The position numbers and the translations under genes are program-made. The notes under the pieces are model-generated. The model did not search any database. It saw only the letters and a program-made list of their open reading frames with translations, and was not told the DNA's origin. Source: a virus. From it: a DNA stretch of 44,459 nt. Below, piece after piece: positions 3,651-40,117 of this stretch (position 1 is the stretch's first letter; the number at the start of each line of letters is the position of its first letter). The DNA lies in the IMG/VR virus record IMGVR_UViG_3300044858_002247, positions 1 to 44,459 of that record. One strand, given 5' to 3'.

Positions 3651-6600
3651 TCATCCTCCCATCATCTCAAGAAGTTTCTGCGACTTCGCATTACTAGGCT
3701 TCTCATCCTCAATTTTCATAAGGACAAGAGCAATTTGCTCCTCAGGAAGCCCCTGAGCCTGAGCAGCAGGCAACCAAACCTGCATAACATAATCACGCCT
3801 ACGCTGCCACTCCAACACGCCATTAAGCCGCGACTGTGATTGTTCAGCCAACTTAGACTCGTTAGCCTTATTAAGCACATACGCGCCAACAACCTCAGCG
3901 CGCTGCTTCTCATCCAGCGCATCCAAATTAACCTTATACGTACTAATACCAAGAGCCGCAAGAAGCGCAGCATCACGATTACCACGAAGATCCTCCGTAG
4001 CACGCATCTCAGGCACACTCAAACGCCAATCGCTAAACGATTCTCCGGCCTCAAAGTTCTTAAGAATATCAGCCGCATTATCAATCGCATAGTAACGATT
4101 ACTAAGCGCATCATTCTCATACGTATCATCAACAGCATCATACAAGCCCTTAGCGCGACCAAGATACGAACCCTTACCAATACCAGTAGCCGTATCATAC
4201 AAAGCGTTAAAGAAGCCCTTACCGCTCTGCTCACCAGTAAAATCAAACTTACCAGTACGAGGATCCACACCAAGAGTATCCTTAATAATCTGATTCACAT
4301 ACGGGTTAGTAAACTCAAACACACTGGCCCCAAGATCAGTACCAGTAAGAAGCCTAGTAGCAGCCGCCGCCATATCACCAGTCGTAGCAAACGGCGACAA
4401 CGCATTCATATCAACCCTAAAATCCTCCTCCTCAATACCAAACATATCCTTAATAGTATCAGGAAGCGGAACCGTCATCATAAGATACTCAGGTACACCA
4501 GACTGACTAGCCTGCACATAACCATACTGACCAACATTATACAACACATTCGTCGTAATAGGCTTATCAACCGCGAGCCGATACGTATACGTCAACGAGT
4601 GACGCTGCCACGCATAAAACGGCATCAAGAAATTACGCATCAACTGCTCAGTAGCACTAAACCTATGATAATTACCCGACACAGTATTCGTCGTATAACG
4701 CAAACGATGCTTCAACTCAGCATTAAAGAACGGTGAATTACGATCAAGCAACAAGTCAGTCGCCGCCTCAAAGGGCGTAATCTCATCATCACCACGCCGA
4801 ACATTACCATCCCAATCCACACCACGACGAATATAATCCTTAACCTCATCACCAAGCATAAACGCATTAAACGTAGGATCCTGCCGCAAATAATCCACAG
4901 CCACATTCCTACGAATAAACTCCTCAAACGCGCTAATCGTCGTATAACCAAAATTCTGAATATACTTCCTAAACCACTCATGCTTATTCGACAAGTCACG
5001 AATAGAATCAGGCATCGTATTCCTAAAATTAGCATCCTTACGATACACATTCTGATTAAACTCGTACTGCAACTGACGATTAACAGCATCAGACTCGCGC
5101 ACAATATTACTCATACGAGTATCCTTATTCTTACGCGCAATCGACTGAGCCGCACGCATAAGAATCTTAGGAGCAGCAGTAGGATTATGAATCATCATCA
5201 TCGTCAAACCACCAAGAACATTATTAGAAATAAACTTGGGATTAAAGTTCAACACCCACCACTTAAAGATATTAGTCGAACCCTTAACCAGAGGACGCGA
5301 CAACAAGCGACTAGCAAAATCATCTCCCTCAATAGCAAGAACACTCAGTTGCTTATCAGCCTGATTAGGGACAGCAAGAACAAAGCCGTGATCGGGAATG
5401 TCAACAGGATCAGAATACATAACATCCCGATAAGCAGCAAGCGTAGAATGCTGTTCCAAACTCTCATTAATAGCATAAGGCGACCAATCCTCCACTCCGC
5501 CACGAACAATAAATTCCGTCGTACCATCAGGCATAGTGCGAACACCCATACCAGCAGGCACATCAAGCGTAGACTGAACCTCATCAAGAAGCCCATTATT
5601 ATACAACTCTAACGCAGCCTCAAACTCGTTAAGAACACCCCGCATACGCGCAAACACACGCGCATCCTCAACATTATCAAACGAGCGAACATTATGCAAC
5701 ACCCGATAACCAGACTCCTCAGGCGCACGACCAACCACACGAGACGCAGGAATAAGCACAGCCTGCGACTCAGCAAGCGTAGCCAAATCCCGCTCAACAC
5801 GAGACACAAAATAATTATACTGGCTGCGAATAACCTGAGCCAAACTATGCTCACGAATAGCACTATTAGCAATAACACTCTCAGTCTTAATCATACGCTC
5901 ATTCATACGAACACCCTGCTGACCAGTCTCAGCAACCTTCTCCGAATAAAAACGCGCATTCGGATACACATCAGCCATAGCATTCAACGAGCCAGCCTCA
6001 AGCAACTTAGTGCCCTGCTCCGTCGGCTCTAAACGAGGACCGCCCTTACCCTTCTTCGTGCGAACAAAGAACTCGCGCGGAAGAGTAAACACCTCACCCT
6101 CATCAACCAACTTACCATTAATAACCTTACCATTATCAAGCGTATGCCGCAAACGAGGAATGTGAAACTGCACAAACCCAGCACCAGCAGTCTGCTCCTT
6201 AGCAAGAATAAGCACAGGACGACCAACATCACCAGCACCACCAAGACCATCCCTGAAAATACCAGCATTATCATCAACAAGAGCACGCACAGCATTAACA
6301 AGTTGCTGCTCACGCTCACGCTTAATATTAGGTTCCAACTCGTCAAACACCGTACCAACACGATCAGCAGACTGAGCCGCAGCAATAATCTCATCAGCAT
6401 CATCAATATTAACAAGCCGCGTAAGATACATCGACAAAGCATTATTAGGCCGCAACACGCGCCCAGTATACTTCTTCAAACGGCCACGCTTACCAAACAA
6501 GTGCTCAGGCGTCAAACGCAAACCATTCATAGCCTCAGCATACAACTGCTTCAAATGATTAAGCGTAGTAGGCGTCATATCCTCATGGACCAGACGATTG

Positions 6601-9320
6601 CGAATAGCCTCATCCTGACGAATCAGACGACGATATAAGTCCATCGCCGCATCCAACTCCGCATCCCCCGGCTTATACGCAGGATCAGCGATACGCGCAC
6701 GAAGATCATGCAAGCCGGACTCCCACTGCTCATCAAAAGCGGCCTCAGCCAAACGAGTATCAACCTGCGCCAACTCACGATCCATAAGATCATTCAAACG
6801 CTTCGTATACAACGCCTCATCATTACGCGCAGCAGGAAGAACAGCGCCACTCTTATCACGAGGAAGCGACCTTAACTTATCCTGCAACGCCTGACGCTGC
6901 ACCTGAGGAGCATTAGCAGGACCAAGCAAACCATCCCCACCAAAAATCTCAGCCTCAATAGCCTGTCGCATAGGAGCCGCAATATTCGCCGCGCCCTCAA
7001 TATCCAGAATACGAGACTGACGATACAACTCGCTAGCATTATCGCCCCAATCATAAACAGCCTCATTCTGCACAGCACGAGTATACGACCAACGATAACC
7101 AAAACGCGGCATATCAATCCACTTACTAAGAATAGCAGCCTTACGCTGACCAGTCTCAGGCTTAGCCAACTCTCGCGCAGCCAACTGCTCACTCTTACGA
7201 CCAACCCAATACCAGCCCTCCTTCAAACCACGAATAATAGGACTAGCAGGCAAACGAACAATAGCAGACTCAGACGCCTCAAGCACACTCTCCGGCTTCT
7301 CAAGTACCTTAGTACGAGGCTCAAACAACGCGCTAGCACGCACAGTCCACTTATTCTCAATACCGTCAAACTCAAGGCCCTGAGCCTTCCACTGGTCAAA
7401 ACGACGAATACTCTCAGCATCACCATTAATAGCAGCACGAAGAATCTTACGGAAATTACGAGGACTAGGAGCCGAATCAACCTTACGCTGAAGAGTCTCC
7501 AACTCAAACTTAGCAGCACGAACCTCCTCAACAGGAGCAAGAATACGTGCAGCCTCAGCGATCTGATCCTCATCAAGAACATCAACCAACTCAGGATTCT
7601 CATCTAACTTCTGCACAATACTCTCCGCCGACTCGCGCTGCACAGCAGGAATAGCCTCAACCGCCTCCTCAGCCGTACGCAAACGCTTACTAGCCTCCTC
7701 AATAGCAACAATGTCGCCACGAGTAACACCAATACGCCCACCATAACGCGGCACACGCGCAGCAATACTAGCCACACTAGCCGACTTCGTAGCAAAACCA
7801 ATAACAGGCGCAACATCAAGAACATCCAAAGCAACCGCAAGAGGATCCAATGCAACAGCATTACCCATCGCATCATAATTATCCTGATTAGTTACACCAG
7901 ACCAGAAACCCTGAAACTTACGCTTACCCTCATCATCAAGGACAAAATTACCGTTCTCATCAACCTCATAAGCAAAAGGATCATAATAGCGCCGCGCATA
8001 ATCAGCCCAAATAGCATCCCCTACTTGGAAATCAATACCGTCGCCCCAATCCTCTTGCTCACGACCAATAACATTCTCAATAGCCGTCTTAGCCTTATCC
8101 TGATCCACAGCACCAAGAGTACCAACAGCCAACGCGCTACTAACAATACCAGCAGCCGCTTGACGCGGCTTACGAATACTCTCTTCACCAGCCATCTTAG
8201 CCTCTCCACCAGCCGCAAAAACACCAGCAGGCAGACCAAGCCCAAAACGAGCCAAGCCACGAGTAAAGTTCATATACAAACCAAGCAAGCCCTTAGAATC
8301 CCAAGAAGCGCCCTCAGGCTTCTCCTCGTCCTTCCACCAAACCTCACGACCCTTAAGAATATCATGCTCAGCAAGACCACTCATATAATTAAGCGCACGA
8401 TTTGTAAGATCATTACCAGTCGTAGTATTACCAAGAACAGTGCCAATAGGACCAGCAAGCAGCCCAAGCGCAGCACCAGTAGCAGACTTAGCATACGAAG
8501 GCGCAGCAACCTCAACGCCACTAGTAGCATTCATAGCAGCCTGAACCTCATCCGTATAACGCTTCTCAAGCAAACCAAACTGCTGCTCCATAGCACGAAT
8601 CTTCTCACCATTAGGCTTAGACCTAGACGAAGCAAGCCTAGCATCCTGCCCCATAGCAATCAACTCAATACCAATAGACTTATCCGCATCAGGCATATTA
8701 TCAGCAGACATAGCCTGCCCAGCCTTAATCAGAGCCTTAGCAAGATTATTCTGGTACGTACCACGAACATCATCATTACGAATCTTACGATTATTAATAT
8801 CAAAAAGAAGGCCATACTTACCCTCTGGCGAAGGCATTGACCCGTAACGACGCACAAAACCACTAGCATCAGCGCCATACTTATCTGCAAAATCTGTATA
8901 TAATTGCACCACAGAATTATACTGCGGCTTACCCGGAATAAGTTGCGTAGCAGCCGCAACATCAAGCAACGTCTCCTTAGGAGTACGATCAAACAACTGG
9001 AACTCTGGCACAGCCTTATTACGACGATACTTCGACAACGCATACAACTGCTGCCAATTCTCACCCATAAGACCAACAGTTTTCTTAGTCTTAGACCTAC
9101 CATACAAACCAGCATACCCATACTTAGCAAGACCCATAGCCTCACCAAATGTATACTTCGGCTGCTTCACATCAGCAACATTAACAAGTTTATTACCAAT
9201 CGTAATAGCATTCGGACGATTAGCAACCTGCGGAGTAGAATACGCAGGAACCAACTTATTGCCTTGGATAACAGCGCGAGCAGGAACATTACGAGTCAAA
9301 TGATTGTTACTCGTAGCCAT
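3651..9320 (-). CDS. Large internal virion / DNA ejection protein (1889 aa)
   Basis: The longest gene in the genome, starting at an ATG six bases after GGAGG. The product is mostly predicted helix with Ala/Glu/Arg-rich stretches. Hydrophobic segments occur around residues 270-300 and 390-410. The C-terminal third holds the conserved-looking block NFNPKFISNNVLGG and, about 200 residues on, FLMPFYAWQRHSL, which I associate with large phage virion proteins that follow the tail genes in podovirus-like genomes. Size and position match the last internal/ejection protein of T7-like particles. I found no polymerase motifs, lytic transglycosylase catalytic signature or peptidase motif, so an enzymatic role cannot be claimed. 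Confidence 0.75.
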   Translation of the reverse strand: MATSNNHLTRNVPARAVIQGNKLVPAYSTPQVANRPNAITIGNKLVNVADVKQPKYTFGEAMGLAKYGYAGLYGRSKTKKTVGLMGENWQQLYALSKYRRNKAVPEFQLFDRTPKETLLDVAAATQLIPGKPQYNSVVQLYTDFADKYGADASGFVRRYGSMPSPEGKYGLLFDINNRKIRNDDVRGTYQNNLAKALIKAGQAMSADNMPDADKSIGIELIAMGQDARLASSRSKPNGEKIRAMEQQFGLLEKRYTDEVQAAMNATSGVEVAAPSYAKSATGAALGLLAGPIGTVLGNTTTGNDLTNRALNYMSGLAEHDILKGREVWWKDEEKPEGASWDSKGLLGLYMNFTRGLARFGLGLPAGVFAAGGEAKMAGEESIRKPRQAAAGIVSSALAVGTLGAVDQDKAKTAIENVIGREQEDWGDGIDFQVGDAIWADYARRYYDPFAYEVDENGNFVLDDEGKRKFQGFWSGVTNQDNYDAMGNAVALDPLAVALDVLDVAPVIGFATKSASVASIAARVPRYGGRIGVTRGDIVAIEEASKRLRTAEEAVEAIPAVQRESAESIVQKLDENPELVDVLDEDQIAEAARILAPVEEVRAAKFELETLQRKVDSAPSPRNFRKILRAAINGDAESIRRFDQWKAQGLEFDGIENKWTVRASALFEPRTKVLEKPESVLEASESAIVRLPASPIIRGLKEGWYWVGRKSEQLAARELAKPETGQRKAAILSKWIDMPRFGYRWSYTRAVQNEAVYDWGDNASELYRQSRILDIEGAANIAAPMRQAIEAEIFGGDGLLGPANAPQVQRQALQDKLRSLPRDKSGAVLPAARNDEALYTKRLNDLMDRELAQVDTRLAEAAFDEQWESGLHDLRARIADPAYKPGDAELDAAMDLYRRLIRQDEAIRNRLVHEDMTPTTLNHLKQLYAEAMNGLRLTPEHLFGKRGRLKKYTGRVLRPNNALSMYLTRLVNIDDADEIIAAAQSADRVGTVFDELEPNIKREREQQLVNAVRALVDDNAGIFRDGLGGAGDVGRPVLILAKEQTAGAGFVQFHIPRLRHTLDNGKVINGKLVDEGEVFTLPREFFVRTKKGKGGPRLEPTEQGTKLLEAGSLNAMADVYPNARFYSEKVAETGQQGVRMNERMIKTESVIANSAIREHSLAQVIRSQYNYFVSRVERDLATLAESQAVLIPASRVVGRAPEESGYRVLHNVRSFDNVEDARVFARMRGVLNEFEAALELYNNGLLDEVQSTLDVPAGMGVRTMPDGTTEFIVRGGVEDWSPYAINESLEQHSTLAAYRDVMYSDPVDIPDHGFVLAVPNQADKQLSVLAIEGDDFASRLLSRPLVKGSTNIFKWWVLNFNPKFISNNVLGGLTMMMIHNPTAAPKILMRAAQSIARKNKDTRMSNIVRESDAVNRQLQYEFNQNVYRKDANFRNTMPDSIRDLSNKHEWFRKYIQNFGYTTISAFEEFIRRNVAVDYLRQDPTFNAFMLGDEVKDYIRRGVDWDGNVRRGDDEITPFEAATDLLLDRNSPFFNAELKHRLRYTTNTVSGNYHRFSATEQLMRNFLMPFYAWQRHSLTYTYRLAVDKPITTNVLYNVGQYGYVQASQSGVPEYLMMTVPLPDTIKDMFGIEEEDFRVDMNALSPFATTGDMAAAATRLLTGTDLGASVFEFTNPYVNQIIKDTLGVDPRTGKFDFTGEQSGKGFFNALYDTATGIGKGSYLGRAKGLYDAVDDTYENDALSNRYYAIDNAADILKNFEAGESFSDWRLSVPEMRATEDLRGNRDAALLAALGISTYKVNLDALDEKQRAEVVGAYVLNKANESKLAEQSQSRLNGVLEWQRRRDYVMQVWLPAAQAQGLPEEQIALVLMKIEDEKPSNAKSQKLLEMMGG

Positions 9321-18542: not shown

Positions 18543-19814
18543 TTAGAAGCCCTCGTCAGCCGCGCCGTCCACCTCAATACCAGTCATAACAATCTGATTG
18601 TTACGACGAGTAGCACCAAGGTTCATATAACGCGCCATAACAGCCTCAAACTTATCGTAGTTCGTGACTTGACGAAGCGTCATACCATCAGCATCAAGGA
18701 AATGCCAATCCTGATCCGAGAACACCTTCATCGTGGACTCATCAAGAATATACATCTTCCCATACGGCGCATCAATGTCCGCCACAACAGGCATACCATT
18801 GTACGACAGCGCCGAGAAGCCCTGAGCATAATTCAGCGACTCCGGATCAATATAACGCACATCATTGGCGAACAGGTTATAGAACTCACGCTGAACACCA
18901 AGCGACGTAATAATCGCCGTCGGCATACCACCAGCAATACGAGCCTTATTAAGACCCTGCTGGATAAGACCAAACGTCAGCGTACCACTATTCTCCGCGG
19001 CAACATCGACGCGCTGATTATCCCACCACGAGTTAGCACCCGTCGGAGTAATACCACCAAAAGCAGTAGCAGCATCCGCAACAATACGCCGCAGACCATC
19101 AACCTCATCCGACAAGGAATAAGTATTGCCCTCAGCAGCAGCAACCTGCGTAACACCCTGACGAACAAGATCATCACCAGCGTCAAGCCCATAGGTAGAC
19201 GCATTAGCGGCAAGAGTAATAACACCCGTATCAACATTAACGGACGAAACCACAATAGTCGAAGTATTCGACTTCGTAGTAGACGAGGCCGTATAAGCAT
19301 CCAACTTCATCCCCGGATAAATCTGGCCCTTACGCAACGCCTCACTAGACGTAAGCGTAACATCAGCACCAGAAATAGCACCAGTAGCCGAAGAAACGGT
19401 AGCAATAACGCCGTCACCAGCACCATACACCTGACGCGCCAGATCCTTCTTAAGATCGTTACGAACACCATCCAACTCAGACTTAAGAGCCTGCAAGAAC
19501 GCGCCAGCCTCATTCTTCGTCTTAGCCATCGACGGACCCGTAACCTCAACACGACCATACAGATACTTCAGATCATACACGGCCTTGTCATAATCCTGCT
19601 TGCCAGCCGACGGCAACTCAGCCGACTCAGCACGCGCACCCACACCAGTAGAACGACCATGATGAAGCGGCACATACGCACGCTTACCAACCAAATCCTC
19701 CGAACGCGCATCAAGACGATTCAGAAGAAGAACCTCATTATTTAACTGCTCAGCAACCGGCCCAAGGTAGTACTCCTTGAGAATATCGCTAAGCGTAGTA
19801 AGATTAGCACTCAC
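18543..19814 (-). CDS. Major capsid protein (423 aa)
   Basis: The N-terminus (LSDILKEYYLGPVAEQLNNE) and the block GKRAYVPLHHGRSTGVGARA, followed about 30 residues on by YLYGRVEVTGPSM, are typical of HK97-fold major capsid proteins of this environmental phage group. The C-terminal region with GMPVVADIDAPYGKMYILDE fits the P-domain/A-domain end of that fold. The GTG start has the best ribosome binding site in the genome, TAAGGAGGTGTTAA. Upstream is the scaffold gene, downstream the hairpin. It is probably the most abundant virion protein. Confidence 0.9.
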   Translation of the reverse strand: MSANLTTLSDILKEYYLGPVAEQLNNEVLLLNRLDARSEDLVGKRAYVPLHHGRSTGVGARAESAELPSAGKQDYDKAVYDLKYLYGRVEVTGPSMAKTKNEAGAFLQALKSELDGVRNDLKKDLARQVYGAGDGVIATVSSATGAISGADVTLTSSEALRKGQIYPGMKLDAYTASSTTKSNTSTIVVSSVNVDTGVITLAANASTYGLDAGDDLVRQGVTQVAAAEGNTYSLSDEVDGLRRIVADAATAFGGITPTGANSWWDNQRVDVAAENSGTLTFGLIQQGLNKARIAGGMPTAIITSLGVQREFYNLFANDVRYIDPESLNYAQGFSALSYNGMPVVADIDAPYGKMYILDESTMKVFSDQDWHFLDADGMTLRQVTNYDKFEAVMARYMNLGATRRNNQIVMTGIEVDGAADEGF

Positions 19815-33987: not shown

Positions 33988-34156
33988 GAATCGTTTTAAG
34001 CCTGATATTGAGTTTGAGATTGATGATGCTACGCTTATGTTGGCACTTCAACTAGGCTGGGTAGAGAAGTTTCTTGGCAGGTGGCAATTCACTGAGAAGG
34101 GACAAGAAGAGTTTACCGCATTCATTAAGGAGTATCATGCAGACATTCGTTCCTGA
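33962..34156 (+). CDS. Small protein (64 aa)
   Basis: A basic N-terminus (MMRLWKKIKNRFKP), then a mixed helical segment (ATLMLALQLGWVEKFLGRWQ) resembling a small winged-helix-like piece. Overlaps both neighbours. Unrecognised. Confidence 0.6.
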   Translation: MMRLWKKIKNRFKPDIEFEIDDATLMLALQLGWVEKFLGRWQFTEKGQEEFTAFIKEYHADIRS

Positions 34157-34568
34157 GATTACATTTAAGAATAGTGTTCGTGTTCTTGATCGTCAGCGAC
34201 TTGGTAAGCAGCGCGTAGAGACGCTTCAGATTATGAAGGCTCTTGCTGGTATGTATACTAAGGGTTGGATTAATCATCCCGCTACTCGTATGTGGCGTGG
34301 TTATGAGCGTAGTCTGCTTGATTATCAGAATGCTACGTGTAATGAATGGTTGCGCCGTGGGTATAAGGATACGTGTTATGATAAGACCGTTGCTGTGTAT
34401 CTTGAAGCGTTTGATTCTAATGCTAGTGTAGAGTTGCCACACTGGTGGGGCGATAATCGTGTGCATAATTCACACAAGTCAGCCCTTGTATTTAAAAACC
34501 CAGCATGGTATAATGTGATCTATCCCAACGTTGTTGGTGAGTATAATTATTATTGGCCCGTAAATTAA
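34137..34568 (+). CDS. Pyrimidine-dimer DNA glycosylase-like protein, MSMEG_6728 family (143 aa)
   Basis: MQTFVPEITFKNSVRVLDRQ, RLGKQRVETLQIMKAL, INHPATRMWRGYERSLLDYQ, W..RGYKD and a C-terminal LPHWWGDNRVHNSHKSALVF ... YNYYWP match the family annotated as MSMEG_6728-type, related to phage T4 endonuclease V. The predicted role is excision repair of UV photoproducts, useful for a sunlight-exposed virus. The ATG at 34137 follows AAGGAGTATC; an open frame extends upstream but lacks a ribosome site. Confidence 0.8.
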   Translation: MQTFVPEITFKNSVRVLDRQRLGKQRVETLQIMKALAGMYTKGWINHPATRMWRGYERSLLDYQNATCNEWLRRGYKDTCYDKTVAVYLEAFDSNASVELPHWWGDNRVHNSHKSALVFKNPAWYNVIYPNVVGEYNYYWPVN

Positions 34569-34577
34569 GGAAACAAT

Positions 34578-35090
34578 ATGTTTATTTCTACTACAAGTGA
34601 GGCTCCAGAAGATCATTATGCTAATGTAACCGCAATGGGGCATACAGTATTGGATCTCGGTGCGGGTGATTTTGGTATGCTAAGCGAACTTCCTTATCCC
34701 TCTACAGTAGAGTATTGGTATATGCAGGGCGCTGATAAAGTTATTGCTGTTGATCGTGATGCTAGCGATTTATCTAATGTGTCTTCTTATAAAAATATTG
34801 CTATGAATGTTGACACTCCTTGGATGTTGGAATGGCTTTATCTTAAATATCAGCCAACTTTTGTAAAAGTTGATATTGAGGGCGCTGAAATTCATTTAAT
34901 GGGTGTAGACGAAGAAATTTTTATTATGCCTAATGTTTATGCAATTGAAACGCATAATCATTATTTATATGATACGCTTTATAATAGGCTGCATGATTGT
35001 AATTATAATATTCATACTACTATTTTGTTAAAGCATACTCCAGAGCAATGCAAGGTTATTCTTGCAGAGAGGGAGCGTTATGATTCCTAA
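34578..35090 (+). CDS. FkbM-like SAM-dependent methyltransferase (170 aa)
   Basis: A SAM-binding motif I, VLDLGAGDFG, and the FkbM hallmark VKVDIEGAE at about 94-102 are present. FkbM enzymes O-methylate sugars or small molecules. Shorter than most (family usually 200 or more). With two glycosyltransferases in the genome, a role in modifying a glycan is possible, though DNA or protein modification is not excluded. The ATG follows AAGGAAACAAT. Confidence 0.7.
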   Translation: MFISTTSEAPEDHYANVTAMGHTVLDLGAGDFGMLSELPYPSTVEYWYMQGADKVIAVDRDASDLSNVSSYKNIAMNVDTPWMLEWLYLKYQPTFVKVDIEGAEIHLMGVDEEIFIMPNVYAIETHNHYLYDTLYNRLHDCNYNIHTTILLKHTPEQCKVILAERERYDS

Positions 35091-35709
35091 GGAACTTACA
35101 GAGAAGTTTCATCCTACTCTTGTTAAGAAGAATCAGAGTGGGCAGGATTATGTAGCCATTGATGGTTATATTAACCGGCTGAATGATGTGCTTGGTCATG
35201 CTTGGGCATGGCAAATTAACAATTGGCAGATCAATGAGGCCACGCCTACTAAGACTGGTAAGATGCAGTATATGGCTGTAGTGCAGGGCACGCTTACTAT
35301 TATCTTGTCTGACATTGGTGTTGTCAGTGTCGGAGAGGATGATGAGGATGCGTTCCTTACCACGCAGAAGGCTATGATTAGTCGTGATGGTATTGGCGCT
35401 AACATTAACTTTGATCCTGATACTGCTGTGAAGTCGGCTCAGGCTGAGGCGCTGAAGAAGGCGTGCCACCAGTATGGTATTGCTCTTTACTTGTGGGATT
35501 CTGCCGAACGTGACTTTGTTGAGTTGCAGCGTCAGGCTTCGCAGAATGATGTTGCGTTGAAGCAGTTGGTTGTTGCTTATACTCAGCGTGTGTTGGAACT
35601 TGATCCGGGCGTTATGCCTACTGCGGATCAGATGCTTGATGTGCTTGATATGAGCGAGTGGGACCCGGTGGTTGCTCGTACTAATCTTAAGGAAAAGGGA
35701 GTGTTGTGA
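35080..35709 (+). CDS. Rad52-like single-strand annealing protein (209 aa)
   Basis: YVAIDGYINRLNDVLGHAWA, VVSVGEDDEDA and AVKSAQAEALKKACHQYGIA fit the Rad52/22 family core used by phage recombinases (Sak type). It would anneal ssDNA produced by the RecB/Cas4-like exonuclease upstream. The ATG at 35080 has AGGGAG four bases upstream and overlaps the end of the methyltransferase gene. Confidence 0.85.
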   Translation: MIPKELTEKFHPTLVKKNQSGQDYVAIDGYINRLNDVLGHAWAWQINNWQINEATPTKTGKMQYMAVVQGTLTIILSDIGVVSVGEDDEDAFLTTQKAMISRDGIGANINFDPDTAVKSAQAEALKKACHQYGIALYLWDSAERDFVELQRQASQNDVALKQLVVAYTQRVLELDPGVMPTADQMLDVLDMSEWDPVVARTNLKEKGVL

Positions 35710-35951: not shown

Positions 35952-36376
35952 TGCTAATTAAGTATGCAAAAACTGATGAGTCTGTTCACGATCCTCTTCG
36001 TGTATACAACAGTGATGCTTGTTGGGATTTGTCTGCTCATGGCGACCACATGGTTTCTACATGGAGTATCATCCCTACTGGGTTGCGGATTGATATTCCT
36101 CATGGTTATTGTGGTTTGATTATGAGTCGTAGTGGTCTGGCTGCTCGTGATGGTGTGTTTGTTCTTAACGCTCCCGGCGTTATTGATGCTGGGTATTCTG
36201 GTGAGATCAAGGTAGTGCTTGGTAATTTGAGTAATATTAATTGGGAGATTCAGGATGGTGAGCGTATCGCCCAATTGTTTATCGCTCCTGTTGAGCAGCA
36301 TTATCTTGTTCGTGATGATACTGTAGAGATTCTCTCTGATCGGGGGAGTGGCGGCTTTGGGTCTACTGGCTATTGA
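35951..36376 (+). CDS. dut: Deoxyuridine 5'-triphosphatase (141 aa)
   Basis: Trimeric dUTPase, hydrolysing dUTP to dUMP to keep uracil out of phage DNA and feed dTMP synthesis. Motifs are visible in order: SDACWDLSA (I), MSRSGLAARDGVFV (II), GVIDAGYSGEIKVVL (III), GERIAQLFIAPV (IV) and the C-terminal RGSGGFGSTG (V). Complete length. The last 29 bases overlap the start of the polymerase N-terminal gene. Confidence 0.95.
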   Translation: MLIKYAKTDESVHDPLRVYNSDACWDLSAHGDHMVSTWSIIPTGLRIDIPHGYCGLIMSRSGLAARDGVFVLNAPGVIDAGYSGEIKVVLGNLSNINWEIQDGERIAQLFIAPVEQHYLVRDDTVEILSDRGSGGFGSTGY

Positions 36377-37292
36377 TACTGAAACTACTGGTGTTAATTG
36401 GCATGATGAGGCGTTTATGATTAGCGTGGCGACACATGATGAGAGCCATGTCTATGATAAGCGCATTTGTAAACATGGCGAATGGGATGCTGCGCTTTGT
36501 ATAGTTCATGATATGTTAATTGCTACTGATAAGATCATCATGCACAATGCCAAGTTTGACATTCAGAAGTTGTGTCGGCTCGGTATGCCCATGAGTGTGT
36601 TCTACAATAAGTTTGAGGACACACAAGCAATTGCTCATCTGATTGATGAGCACCAGTCAACCGGACTTAAGCCGCTTGCTAAGAAGTATCTTAGCGAGTC
36701 CACTGATGAGGATGAGGTGCTGAAGGTTTGGCGGCGTAAGAATAAGATGAAGAAGGAGGACGGGTATTATCCTATTCCTCATGAGATCCTAGCACCCTAC
36801 GCTATCAAGGATGCTGAGTTTACTCTGCGTTTGTATGATGAGTTGTTGCCTCGTTTGGCTAAGGAACTTCAGCCTTTGTATACTATTGAGAAGGAACTTA
36901 CTATTGCGTTGCTTCGCGTTGAAGCACAGGGTATGAGCGTTGATCGTGAGTATGTCACACAGAAGCGTAAGGAGTATGGTGATCGGATTTACAAACTTAA
37001 GCGTCGTATTGGGGAACTTGCTGGCGAGGAGTTCAACCCGCAGTCGCCCCAACAGGTTCTACACGCACTCGCAGAACGAGGATTGGATGTTGGAAAAACA
37101 GACAAGGCCACGCTCTCCTCGGTGGATGACGAACTGGCACGACTAATTGTAGCGTTGCGAGAAGCAAATAAAATCAAGGCCACGTACTTTGATGCGCTGA
37201 GTGAGGAATCTAAGGATGGTATTCTTCATCCTAACTTCCGTCAGCATGGTACGAGGACGGGCCGTATGAGCAGTGGGAGTGCAGAGGCATGA
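36348..37292 (+). CDS. polA: DNA polymerase I, N-terminal part: 3'-5' exonuclease and thumb (314 aa)
   Basis: The exonuclease motifs are AIDTETTG (D10, E12), IIMHNAKFDI (D71) and YAIKDAEFTL (Y151, D155), all present. A thumb region with FNPQSPQQVLHALAERGLDV follows, and the protein stops right after the TGRMSSGS motif that precedes the palm. After AEA the frame ends in TGA. The palm and fingers are encoded separately at 38053-38793, so the polymerase is split by a glycosyltransferase gene. The GTG at 36348 lies inside the end of dut; its ribosome site is poor, so the exact start is uncertain. Confidence 0.92.
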   Translation: MAALGLLAIDTETTGVNWHDEAFMISVATHDESHVYDKRICKHGEWDAALCIVHDMLIATDKIIMHNAKFDIQKLCRLGMPMSVFYNKFEDTQAIAHLIDEHQSTGLKPLAKKYLSESTDEDEVLKVWRRKNKMKKEDGYYPIPHEILAPYAIKDAEFTLRLYDELLPRLAKELQPLYTIEKELTIALLRVEAQGMSVDREYVTQKRKEYGDRIYKLKRRIGELAGEEFNPQSPQQVLHALAERGLDVGKTDKATLSSVDDELARLIVALREANKIKATYFDALSEESKDGILHPNFRQHGTRTGRMSSGSAEA

Positions 37293-38056
37293 TTAGTGTT
37301 ATCACACCAACATATCAAACACCTAAAGATGTTCTTGCTCGCACTTGGCAAAGCCTAAAGAACCAGACGTATACTGATTGGGAGTGGGTGGTATGGGATG
37401 ATTCGTATACTAGTGATACGTGGTCCCAAGTCTACGGGTTTTGTAGTGATGAGCGCTACAAGATCAGTATGTTTCGTAGTCATGTCCGCTCTGGCATTAT
37501 CGGTCAGGTCAAGCGTTGGGGATTTATGCTAGCATCTGGTGATATTCTGGTAGAACTTGACCATGATGACGAGTTGACACCAAACGCTCTGCAAGAAATT
37601 AGTAGTGCGTTTGATGATCCTGATGTTGGATTTGTATATTCTGATTGTAGTGAGATTCATCCTAATGGGGAGTCGCATCGTTATCCTGAGGGCTGGGCGT
37701 TTGGTTATGGCAAAGAGTATTATGATGAGGAGCATGGTTTGTGGGTGATGCAAGCCCCAGAGATCAACGCTACAACTCTGAGTCATATCGTGAGTGTGCC
37801 TAATCATGTGCGTGCTTGGCGTGCTAGTGTGTACCGTGAACTAAATGGTCATGACGCTAGCCTACGTGTCGCGGATGATTACGAGTTGATCGTCAGGACC
37901 GCTCTGCATACCAAGATGAAGCATATTAATCGGCTCCTATATAAGCAGCATATTAATCCTAACTCTGCACAACGTGTTCATAATGCTGAGATTCAAAGGT
38001 ATGTAGCGGTGATTAGTGATATGTATGCTGATAGAATTAAGGAGAAGTATTCGTGA
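37289..38056 (+). CDS. GT2 family glycosyltransferase inserted in the polymerase gene (255 aa)
   Basis: A complete GT-A-type enzyme: ISVITPTYQTP at the N-terminus, WEWVVWDDSYTSDTW for the nucleotide pocket, and GDILVELDHDDELTP holding the DxD-like metal site (about 91-94). It continues with DVGFVYSDCSEIHPNGESHR and ends KRY-free at IKEKYS. Its ATG overlaps the polymerase N-part stop (ATGA), and its stop overlaps the GTG of the C-part (GTGA). It therefore fits between the two halves with no spare base and is translated in a third frame. Likely transfers a sugar to a virion, host glycan or DNA target; the substrate is unknown. Confidence 0.85.
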   Translation: MISVITPTYQTPKDVLARTWQSLKNQTYTDWEWVVWDDSYTSDTWSQVYGFCSDERYKISMFRSHVRSGIIGQVKRWGFMLASGDILVELDHDDELTPNALQEISSAFDDPDVGFVYSDCSEIHPNGESHRYPEGWAFGYGKEYYDEEHGLWVMQAPEINATTLSHIVSVPNHVRAWRASVYRELNGHDASLRVADDYELIVRTALHTKMKHINRLLYKQHINPNSAQRVHNAEIQRYVAVISDMYADRIKEKYS

Positions 38057-38793
38057 ATGTGCAGAATATTCCACGAAGTCAGAAGGATGTGAAGCGTGCA
38101 TTTGTGCCGAAACTGGATGCGTTCCTATTCTTTGATTATAAGGCTATTGAGGTCAGGCTGCTCGCATACTACCTCGCTAGGGGAATCGGTGACAAGTCTT
38201 TGGCTAGTGAGATCAACACTGGCGCTGATCCTCACCGTATCACCGCGCAGGGCTTGTACCAGCGAGAGGATATCAGCGACGAGGAGCGTCAAGTAGGTAA
38301 GACCCTAAACTTTAGCATCATCTATGGTGGTGGCACACCCACTATCATGCGACAGTTGGGAGTTAACTTCAAAGAGGCAAAGCGTCTCCTCAATGCTTAT
38401 CATGAGACTAGGCCCGGAATTAAACTCCTTAACCAGAGTATTGCAGAAACCTTGGATATGCGTGGTTATATCCAGAGTTTGTATGGCCGTAGGCTTCATG
38501 TGCTTGAGGCACACAAGGCGCTGAACGCGCTAATTCAGGGATCAGCCGCCGACCTCATGCGTGATGCGGTAGTACGAGTAAACCAGCACCTATACTCTAA
38601 TTATGCTACACATATAGTAAATATCGTACATGATGAGATTATTCTAGATGCTGACAAGAACGAGATCAAACAACTAGTTTCCGTTATCCCTAGTCTTATG
38701 GGGAATAAAGAGGTAGAACAATTCGTTAGTGTAGATACTGACTGTGAGATTAGTTATACTAACTGGGCAGACAAGGAGCCTTATGATGGATAA
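38053..38793 (+). CDS. polA: DNA polymerase I, C-terminal part: palm and fingers (246 aa)
   Basis: Begins at a GTG with NVQNIPRS, the motif that in unsplit enzymes follows RxSSxxP directly. Motif A is FFDYKAIEVR (Asp about 28), motif B RQVGKTLNFSIIYGG (Arg about 79, Lys about 83, Tyr about 91), and motif C IVHDEI (Asp about 194). All catalytic residues are present, so an active enzyme could form from the two polypeptides. Its end overlaps the HNH gene start. Confidence 0.92.
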   Translation: MNVQNIPRSQKDVKRAFVPKLDAFLFFDYKAIEVRLLAYYLARGIGDKSLASEINTGADPHRITAQGLYQREDISDEERQVGKTLNFSIIYGGGTPTIMRQLGVNFKEAKRLLNAYHETRPGIKLLNQSIAETLDMRGYIQSLYGRRLHVLEAHKALNALIQGSAADLMRDAVVRVNQHLYSNYATHIVNIVHDEIILDADKNEIKQLVSVIPSLMGNKEVEQFVSVDTDCEISYTNWADKEPYDG

Positions 38794-39148
38794 TTATAAG
38801 AAGTGTACGCATTGTCATGAGATTAAGCATACTGATAATTACTATAAGGATAAGCGTGGTAAGTATGGTGTAGAGAGTTTGTGTCGTGATTGTCGCCGCG
38901 CTAAGACGGATGTGCAGGCTACGATCAATCGTGGTATTGTCGCGGCTGCTAAGTATAAGCCGTGTCATTGTTGCGGTAAGGTTCTTCACCCGTCGCTTAT
39001 TGACCTGCATCACCTTGATCCTAAGAGTAAGGAGATCACTGTTTCTAAGGGTATTTATCATAGGTCTGCTGCATCGTTGATGCGAGAGATTGAGAAGTGT
39101 GTGCCTGTGTGCAGGCCTTGTCATAGGGAGATTCATCATGGCAATTGA
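38786..39148 (+). CDS. HNH endonuclease (120 aa)
   Basis: Two N-terminal cysteine pairs (CTHCHEIK; CRDCRR) are followed by CHCCGK, the HNH core LIDLHHLDPKSKE and CRPCHREIHH. This is a zinc-stabilised free-standing HNH nuclease of the kind that acts as a homing or packaging enzyme. Its position immediately after the split polymerase makes a part in that rearrangement conceivable. The ATG at 38786 is seven bases after AAGGAG; the ATG at 38783 is an alternative. Confidence 0.85.
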   Translation: MDNYKKCTHCHEIKHTDNYYKDKRGKYGVESLCRDCRRAKTDVQATINRGIVAAAKYKPCHCCGKVLHPSLIDLHHLDPKSKEITVSKGIYHRSAASLMREIEKCVPVCRPCHREIHHGN

Positions 39149-39374
39149 AGATCCGGTCAATAGTCCAGCCCATTACACTCAAGGCGAGATGGAGGTAATT
39201 ACCGCTATTGAGGGTTTGGGACTTGACTATCACCAAGGGAATGTGCTAAAATATGTAGCACGATACCGCTACAAGAACGGCATTGAGGATCTCCGCAAGG
39301 CCAAGTGGTATATTGATCGGCTGTTGTATATTGAAGAGCAGCGTGCAATTAATCAGCAAAGGAGTTGGGTATGA
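39138..39374 (+). CDS. DUF3310 protein (78 aa)
   Basis: VNSPAHYTQGEMEVITAIEG, QGNVLKYVARYRYKNGIEDL and RKAKWYIDRLL match the DUF3310 family, short proteins found in many phage replication modules, sometimes annotated as nucleotide kinase-like. Complete. The ATG follows GGGAGATTCATC and overlaps the HNH gene end; its own end overlaps the endolysin start. Confidence 0.85.
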   Translation: MAIEDPVNSPAHYTQGEMEVITAIEGLGLDYHQGNVLKYVARYRYKNGIEDLRKAKWYIDRLLYIEEQRAINQQRSWV

Positions 39375-40117
39375 GAACGTTGAGGTTGACTAGTCCTTAT
39401 ATGAAGGGCAAGGATGTGAAGGTGGCGCAGCGTGCGCTGAAGAACTTTAAGGCTTGGGTTGGTCCTATTGATGGCGTGTTTGGTGAGCAGACCGCTGCTG
39501 CTACGAAGCAGGCTAAGTGGATGCTTGGTTATGCTGAGAAGGATTGCACTCAGGTGTATGGTGCTATGCTTCACGAGTATCTTACTGGTAAGCGTAAGCC
39601 TACGATCTTGATGCAGCGCCGCGCTAAGAAGCGTAATGTTTCGCATAAGCCTATGCGTGAGCGTGCTCTTGCTGAGGCTATGAAGTGGATCGGTACTAAG
39701 GAGAATCCTCCGCATTCCAATAAGGTTATCTTCTCTGATTGGTATGGTTTGCGTGGTCCGTGGTGCGCTATGTTTGTATCGTGGTGTTTCTCAAAGGCTG
39801 GTAGCGTGGCTATTGATCCTAAGAATGCTCGTTGGGCTTACTGCCCGTTCATGGTTAATGATGCTCGTGCCCAGCGTAACGGCCTTATCACTGTTCCTAT
39901 TGATAAGGTACAGCCGGGAGACGTTGCTATGTTTGATTGGCAGGGCGATGGCATCAGCGATCATGTTGGTATCGTGGCAACCAAGCCTGACTCTAAGGGC
40001 AACTTTGATTGCGTAGAGGGTAACACTAGTGTCAGCAATAACAGTGATGGCGGCGAGGTCATGCGCCGTTCTCGTAACAAGAAGCAAGTGCAAGTATTTG
40101 TCCGCGTCGTCCGGTAG
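39371..40117 (+). CDS. Endolysin: peptidoglycan-binding plus CHAP domain (248 aa)
   Basis: The N-terminal domain (about 1-60) is of the PG_binding_1 type: MKGKDVKVAQRALKNFKAWV and GPIDGVFGEQTAAATKQ. The C-terminal domain (about 95-248) is CHAP: GPWCAMFVSWCF with catalytic Cys at about 132, QPGDVAMFDW and DHVGIVA with His at about 198, and EGNTS. It would cut peptidoglycan cross-bridges. No signal peptide or TM segment, so release needs the holin encoded on the opposite arm (3062-3262). Lying among replication genes, it is separated from the holin candidates. Confidence 0.88.
   Translation: MRTLRLTSPYMKGKDVKVAQRALKNFKAWVGPIDGVFGEQTAAATKQAKWMLGYAEKDCTQVYGAMLHEYLTGKRKPTILMQRRAKKRNVSHKPMRERALAEAMKWIGTKENPPHSNKVIFSDWYGLRGPWCAMFVSWCFSKAGSVAIDPKNARWAYCPFMVNDARAQRNGLITVPIDKVQPGDVAMFDWQGDGISDHVGIVATKPDSKGNFDCVEGNTSVSNNSDGGEVMRRSRNKKQVQVFVRVVR

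Follow-up and report, generated by a model that had tools for sequence, protein, structure and literature searches.

The locus analysed here lies in a stretch of viral DNA of 44,459 nucleotides (the window, in what follows) and holds a family A DNA polymerase that is encoded as two open reading frames (ORFs), with an intact glycosyltransferase gene between them. The three ORFs were found as an earlier note on this DNA had described them, including the ATGA and GTGA overlaps by which they are joined. The space between the two polymerase genes is termed the slot, and the features of the region are the following:

35080 to 35709, plus strand: Rad52-like annealase gene (Pfam Rad52_Rad22, E 2e-6), a candidate agent of slot swapping
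36348 to 37292, plus strand: polA N-gene, 314 aa, with 3'-5' exonuclease and thumb, up to the TGRMSSG motif
37275 to 37279, plus strand: GGGAG, Shine-Dalgarno-like, inside the last N-gene codons and serving whichever gene follows
37289 to 37292, plus strand: ATGA start/stop overlap, left edge of the slot (from the sequence and the relatives' junctions)
37289 to 38056, plus strand: glycosyltransferase family 2 gene, 255 aa, the present slot occupant or cassette (Pfam PF00535)
38040 to 38044, plus strand: AGGAG, Shine-Dalgarno of the C-gene, located in the final part of the glycosyltransferase gene (-7.9 kcal/mol)
38053 to 38056, plus strand: GTGA overlap, right edge of the slot (GCATGA in several relatives)
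38053 to 38793, plus strand: polA C-gene, 246 aa, with palm and fingers and NVQNIPR at its start
38786 to 39148, plus strand: HNH-like nuclease gene (weak HNH match in Pfam), judged to lie outside the mechanism

The N-gene starts with GTG (possibly with the alternative TTG at 36357) and its product carries a short tail, SAEA, after the TGRMSSG motif. In Pfam, this product matches DNA_pol_A_exo1 (E 6e-18) and positions 2-123 of DNA_pol_A, while the C-gene product matches positions 127-380 (E 4e-48), the two halves abutting in the profile at 123/127. When mapped to solved structures, the N-part ends at Taq residue 577 and the C-part starts at Taq 580, and on the Klenow chain the boundary falls at residues 349/352. 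Two adjoining genes thus jointly span one enzyme, in place of the usual single-chain organisation of family A polymerases. The earlier claim that nothing has been lost at the break stands as far as the abutting halves are concerned, but not to the letter, since fused relatives (SSxxPN) have three residues from SS to N where the five-residue tail GSAEA is found here.

The enzyme is recognizable as a family A polymerase with 3'-5' exonuclease from its alignment: the N-part has the exonuclease motifs DTET, NAKFD and YAxKDAEF, and motifs A (DYKAIEVR), B (RQxGKTLNFSIIYG) and C (HDE) are intact in the C-part. AlphaFold models of either half resemble Pol I enzymes (mean pLDDT 86.8 for the N-half, with phiVC8 DpoZ as best PDB match, and 88.1 for the C-half, with best matches to Bst Pol I), and the chain ends at the break (N 299-314, C 1-7) have low confidence in these single-chain models. 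A 2-aminoadenine genome, considered because the N chain is nearest to DpoZ, was rejected: the PurZ gene was not found in the record, which thus gives no sign of such a genome. Neither a family B polymerase nor a bacterial PolIII alpha was found in the record, which may be incomplete, and the two-ORF family A enzyme is the only DNA polymerase detected in this phage.

Relatives were collected by IMG/VR scans, all members of the clade being metagenomic contigs; a search of bacterial genomes for the polymerase lineage returned distant homologues only. All 42 related viral contigs have the polymerase break at one and the same residue, with the N and C ORFs in different frames in every one of them and in the window, and the search for an unsplit polA suggested by the earlier note yielded no fused copy among these 42. 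Near-identical copies of the locus (L001 and L002) occur in two other metagenomes, which, together with the break common to the 42 contigs, shows that the arrangement is not an assembly artefact. The contigs comprise a close set of 37 with both halves readable (N and C each 61-100% identical) and a distant set of five (L304-L308, N 38-43% identical). Most homologues at about 30% identity are fused; L096, MEP401, ctLwi270 and a few interrupted cases are the exceptions encountered. The fused phage PolA enzymes of this kind (Mycobacterium phages such as Acolyte, and DpoZ of vibriophage phiVC8/VP2) have the same motifs on a single chain.

What lies between the halves varies widely. Of the 37 close contigs, 28 have a glycosyltransferase, with or without further ORFs, five have no more than a small ORF or short insert, and four have nothing. 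Even in these four insert-free alleles (L015, L019, L020 and L031) the enzyme remains divided between two ORFs with an RTGA overlap, the TGA of the N-gene overlapping the start of the C-gene as GAAGC-ATGA-ACGTACAG (GTGA in L015). In the distant set, SLOG-like genes lie between the halves of L304, L306 and L307, and a full-length aspartate/ornithine carbamoyltransferase gene between those of L308 (6981-7913). The repertoire of the slot therefore includes the glycosyltransferase, an acidic ORF of about 61 aa, both of these, HNH, SLOG-like and aspartate carbamoyltransferase genes; the inserts, absent in some alleles and up to about 1.9 kb long in others, are coding and hold unrelated genes. The acidic ORFs form a family of 57-63 aa (FDYYxxDEDGSWNWYYCSML..WPVFADSFDxAM; for instance L013, 4819-5004) for which no Pfam match was found.

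The split clade is monophyletic among fused polymerases (100/99), and in a further tree the split sequences make up one side of a branch (SH-aLRT 98). The slot glycosyltransferases are confined to the near lineage and the split is older, predating their entry. The split had been put down to the glycosyltransferase, which would have entered a whole polA by itself or with the HNH nuclease as its mobiliser, and in the window this is what the arrangement evokes: the glycosyltransferase fits precisely between the halves, and there is an HNH gene nearby. The four relatives that are split with nothing between, and the five deeper ones split by other, unrelated genes, show that the glycosyltransferase is not the cause of the split. 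The HNH gene, which the earlier note saw as a possible driver, fares no better: it lies 3' of the C-part, occurs in only about five distinct phages, is absent from most glycosyltransferase-bearing relatives and is uncorrelated with the glycosyltransferase. We consider this origin of the split very unlikely, and refuted by these data unless the insert-free, SLOG and carbamoyltransferase alleles should all descend from an ancestor with the glycosyltransferase. The locus also differs from genes split by a homing endonuclease of the mobE/seg type, the slot being filled with a glycosyltransferase, small ORFs or nothing, and only L007 having an HNH-like ORF inside it. The repeat GTGCAGA, which the earlier note had placed on both sides of the insert, does occur at 37279-37285 and 38059-38065 (the sole two plus-strand copies in the window), but its reading as a mark of insertion is not supported. 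As a target-site duplication it was rejected, since copies on both sides of the cassette occur nowhere but in the window, in L002, which is a near-duplicate of the window, and in L004, and the frame differs from one side to the other.

Most junctions are equipped for translation. An anti-Shine-Dalgarno duplex of -5 kcal/mol or stronger is predicted at 25 of 27 junctions (93%), against 18% of background ATGs, and the signal at the N-gene end is usually GGAG, about ten bases 5' of the next start. The neighbouring genes are mostly packed with short overlaps of the same ATGA/GTGA sort, so the cassette is arranged in the phage's ordinary operon style, here inside an enzyme. From these signals and overlaps, the N-gene and the gene that follows it are probably coupled by reinitiation.

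A different outcome would be the rejoining of the halves into one polymerase chain, at the RNA level by an intron or at the protein level by a split intein. Mobile introns are known to target phage polymerase genes (PMC2988022), and the halves continue one another almost exactly when mapped to structures. The insert-free alleles, nevertheless, leave nothing to splice, and the inserts of the other alleles are coding, unrelated in content and of varying length up to the maximum given above. Besides, the N chain stops about five residues past SS and the C chain begins at its motif, leaving no space for intein halves, and the C-gene is preceded by its own ribosome-binding site. No Rfam intron was matched in 36200-39400 up to E = 1, the insert being coding throughout, and there is no intein sequence at the break, the insert lying in another frame. 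The view that neither an intein nor an intron is involved was thus borne out, and rejoining appears exceedingly improbable. Frameshifting between the halves was also rejected, being impossible with whole genes in between.

Broken genes are often a mark of decay, and the polymerase could be turning into a pseudogene, with the phage dependent on the host replicase. Across the clade, however, the break has lasted while the sequences diverged deeply, to about 40% identity, omega (mostly 0.05-0.20) shows purifying selection on both halves, and the exonuclease and palm catalytic motifs are unchanged in all relatives (25 sequences aligned for the N-part), as had been stated earlier for the window alone; decay is accordingly a reading to which we give almost no credence. 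The two-chain state, kept clade-wide over this divergence and in the insert-free alleles too, is stable and not a passing accident. The halves could also act separately, the N product as a free exonuclease and the C product as an independent thumb-less polymerase or regulator, and the confident folding of either half alone (AlphaFold) is in keeping with this. Still, the N-gene does not stop at the thumb but takes in the primer-binding RMSS motif as well, and the two halves are always adjacent in the operon; separate action seems to us improbable. Judged from known Pol I structures, a palm could not grip the primer-template without the thumb and the primer-binding motif. The purifying selection, the retention of all catalytic motifs and the presence of ribosome-binding sites make assembly of two chains the best reading, and the N and C chains probably form one active polymerase, as the earlier note had expected.

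Taken as a whole, the data are in our view very probably explained by a stable two-subunit family A enzyme, with a single old break and a junction that serves as an exchangeable slot. In this mechanism, an ancestor's polA would have been broken once, in the loop between the RxSS and NxQNIP motifs (Taq residues 578-579), and the halves would thereafter have persisted as two closely coupled genes, the end of the N-gene holding a ribosome-binding site and its stop overlapping the next start. The junction would so have become a slot, into which genes with starts and stops matching the RTGA junction could fit with neither half touched, and the strongly conserved polA flanks would provide the homology for exchange, probably aided by the phage's Rad52-like annealase. 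The glycosyltransferase would be a passenger that entered once and was then lost and swapped among relatives, while the N chain (exonuclease and thumb) and the C chain (palm and fingers) would join as one polymerase.

The cassette itself is an intact gene, its product matching Glycos_transf_2 (PF00535, E 3e-20). The DHDD and ADD motifs are invariant across 51 homologues, as in a GT2 enzyme with a DxD-type motif, and the gene, judged from omega, is likewise under purifying selection. Compared with 32 related genes from other phage contexts, the slot glycosyltransferases group together as one clade (100/100) that none of the 32 joins, and seven changes are needed on the polymerase tree to account for their presence and absence. 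Because the slot copies form one clade, the simplest history is one entry, with losses and exchanges after it, and repeated independent entry from outside was rejected on the same ground.

Exchange is visible in several comparisons. The window glycosyltransferase is nearest to those of L010, L226 and L036 (84-88%), and the window polymerase to those of L003 and L004. Between L016 and L026, dS is 0.04 for the glycosyltransferase, against 0.34 for the N-gene and 0.57 for the C-gene, and a block of near-identity runs from the N tail through the cassette to the C head, with more diverged flanks. Between L016 (filled) and L020 (empty), the C-genes are nearly identical and the N-genes diverged, the switch lying at or near the junction. 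Delta lnL is 21-59 between the two halves of the glycosyltransferase gene but 184-478 between these and the polymerase, so the halves fit one another much more closely than they fit the polymerase. In a control, the first and second parts of the N-gene, and likewise of the C-gene, also conflict with each other, so recombination is general in the region; for this reason the break is not claimed as the sole crossover point, and free recombination between N and C due to the break was rejected, the conflict within each half being equal. Homologous recombination in the conserved polA flanks explains the exchange blocks. The gene for the Rad52-like annealase lies just upstream of the N-gene, and phage recombinases of this kind have been described as promoting relaxed homologous recombination (PMC3945230). 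Possibly, though we think it rather doubtful, the break has been kept because it is useful, the polA halves acting as permanent conserved homology arms around an exchangeable slot that no relative lacks, while the coding sequence of the polymerase itself carries the ribosome-binding signals.

Replicases in pieces have precedents. In the T4-like Aeromonas phages 25 and 44RR, two genes (gp43A/gp43B) encode the replicative polymerase, and their products are active and purify together; what lies between the genes varies from phage to phage, and the endonuclease may have arrived after the split (PMC2988022). That enzyme, however, belongs to family B and has another break point, and its insert is a homing endonuclease gene or untranslated, whereas metabolic or unknown genes, or nothing, are found here. 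The NrdA of phage Aeh1, split by mobE, shows an essential enzyme in two chains with function retained (PMC2988022), although it is another enzyme and its splitting gene is a homing endonuclease. Closer at hand, the family A polymerase of the OM43 phages MEP401 and MEP402 (Zobellviridae) is spread over two ORFs, which a small third one separates, and an intron was suspected there (PMC10580990). As here, one ORF holds the exonuclease and the N-terminal polymerase part and the other the C-terminal part, and the split occurs in most of that phage group (PMC10580990). In MEP401, on the other hand, the break lies about 20 residues downstream, just before motif A (the N-part ending PNLQNF..LSRYGE and the C-part starting MILNADAKALEW), in a very distant polymerase that shares neither the break point nor a common origin with the present clade; the intervening ORF is small, and insert-free alleles and gene exchange are not described there (PMC10580990).

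A further case is L096 (IMG/VR 3300009506_000091, 4377-6982), a T5-like family A polymerase cut between RLSSS and NFQNVPR, that is, at the homologous point, with an ORF of 83 aa between the halves, joined by ATGA. Its nearest kin are fused T5-like polymerases, a common origin with the split clade is rejected (p-AU 7.6e-5), and on this phylogenetic evidence its split is independent; a search for relatives of L096 gave none besides L096 itself. Family A polymerases have thus been split independently no fewer than two times at the homologous point, and once more about 20 residues from it. These events mark the stretch from RxSS to motif A as a place where such enzymes break naturally, one that could be used in split-polymerase design. 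Given the MEP401/402 and T4-like gp43 precedents in the open-access literature, and the break and slot that differ here, the finding is a variant of a genes-in-pieces replicase. Known before were the family B split replicases of T4-like phages and, as a brief remark, the family A case of the OM43 phages; new, with respect to that literature, is an old, clade-wide two-gene family A polymerase with a variable gene slot at its junction. Such a slot is a natural system for loading and exchanging accessory genes inside an essential phage operon.

Other family A polymerases are interrupted as well. In that of a podovirus from Manatee Spring (MW202554.1, 1727-4364; L325), the cut falls at the exonuclease/polymerase boundary and leaves two ORFs, of which the one for the exonuclease is apparently fused to a uracil-DNA-glycosylase-like part. 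Two more (L115, 311-3496; L111, 4557-7085) are interrupted near motif A, and L115 has an intein-like end of its N-part (DGWKYVSNLVVGDKL) and a GIY-YIG-like ORF between the parts.

As for the host, the major capsid protein of the window (18543-19814, minus strand) is about 30% identical to those of Arthrobacter phages Jasmine and Adat, Microbacterium phage Shocker and Cellulosimicrobium phage DS1 among known phages, a kinship that suggests an actinobacterial host. In the same early operon as polA, the window encodes a pyrimidine dimer DNA glycosylase (34086-34568; T4 DenV-like, Pyr_excise). A weak match to an FkbM-type methyltransferase is found at 34578-35090, with a function that is possibly linked to that of the glycosyltransferase (sugar or surface modification).
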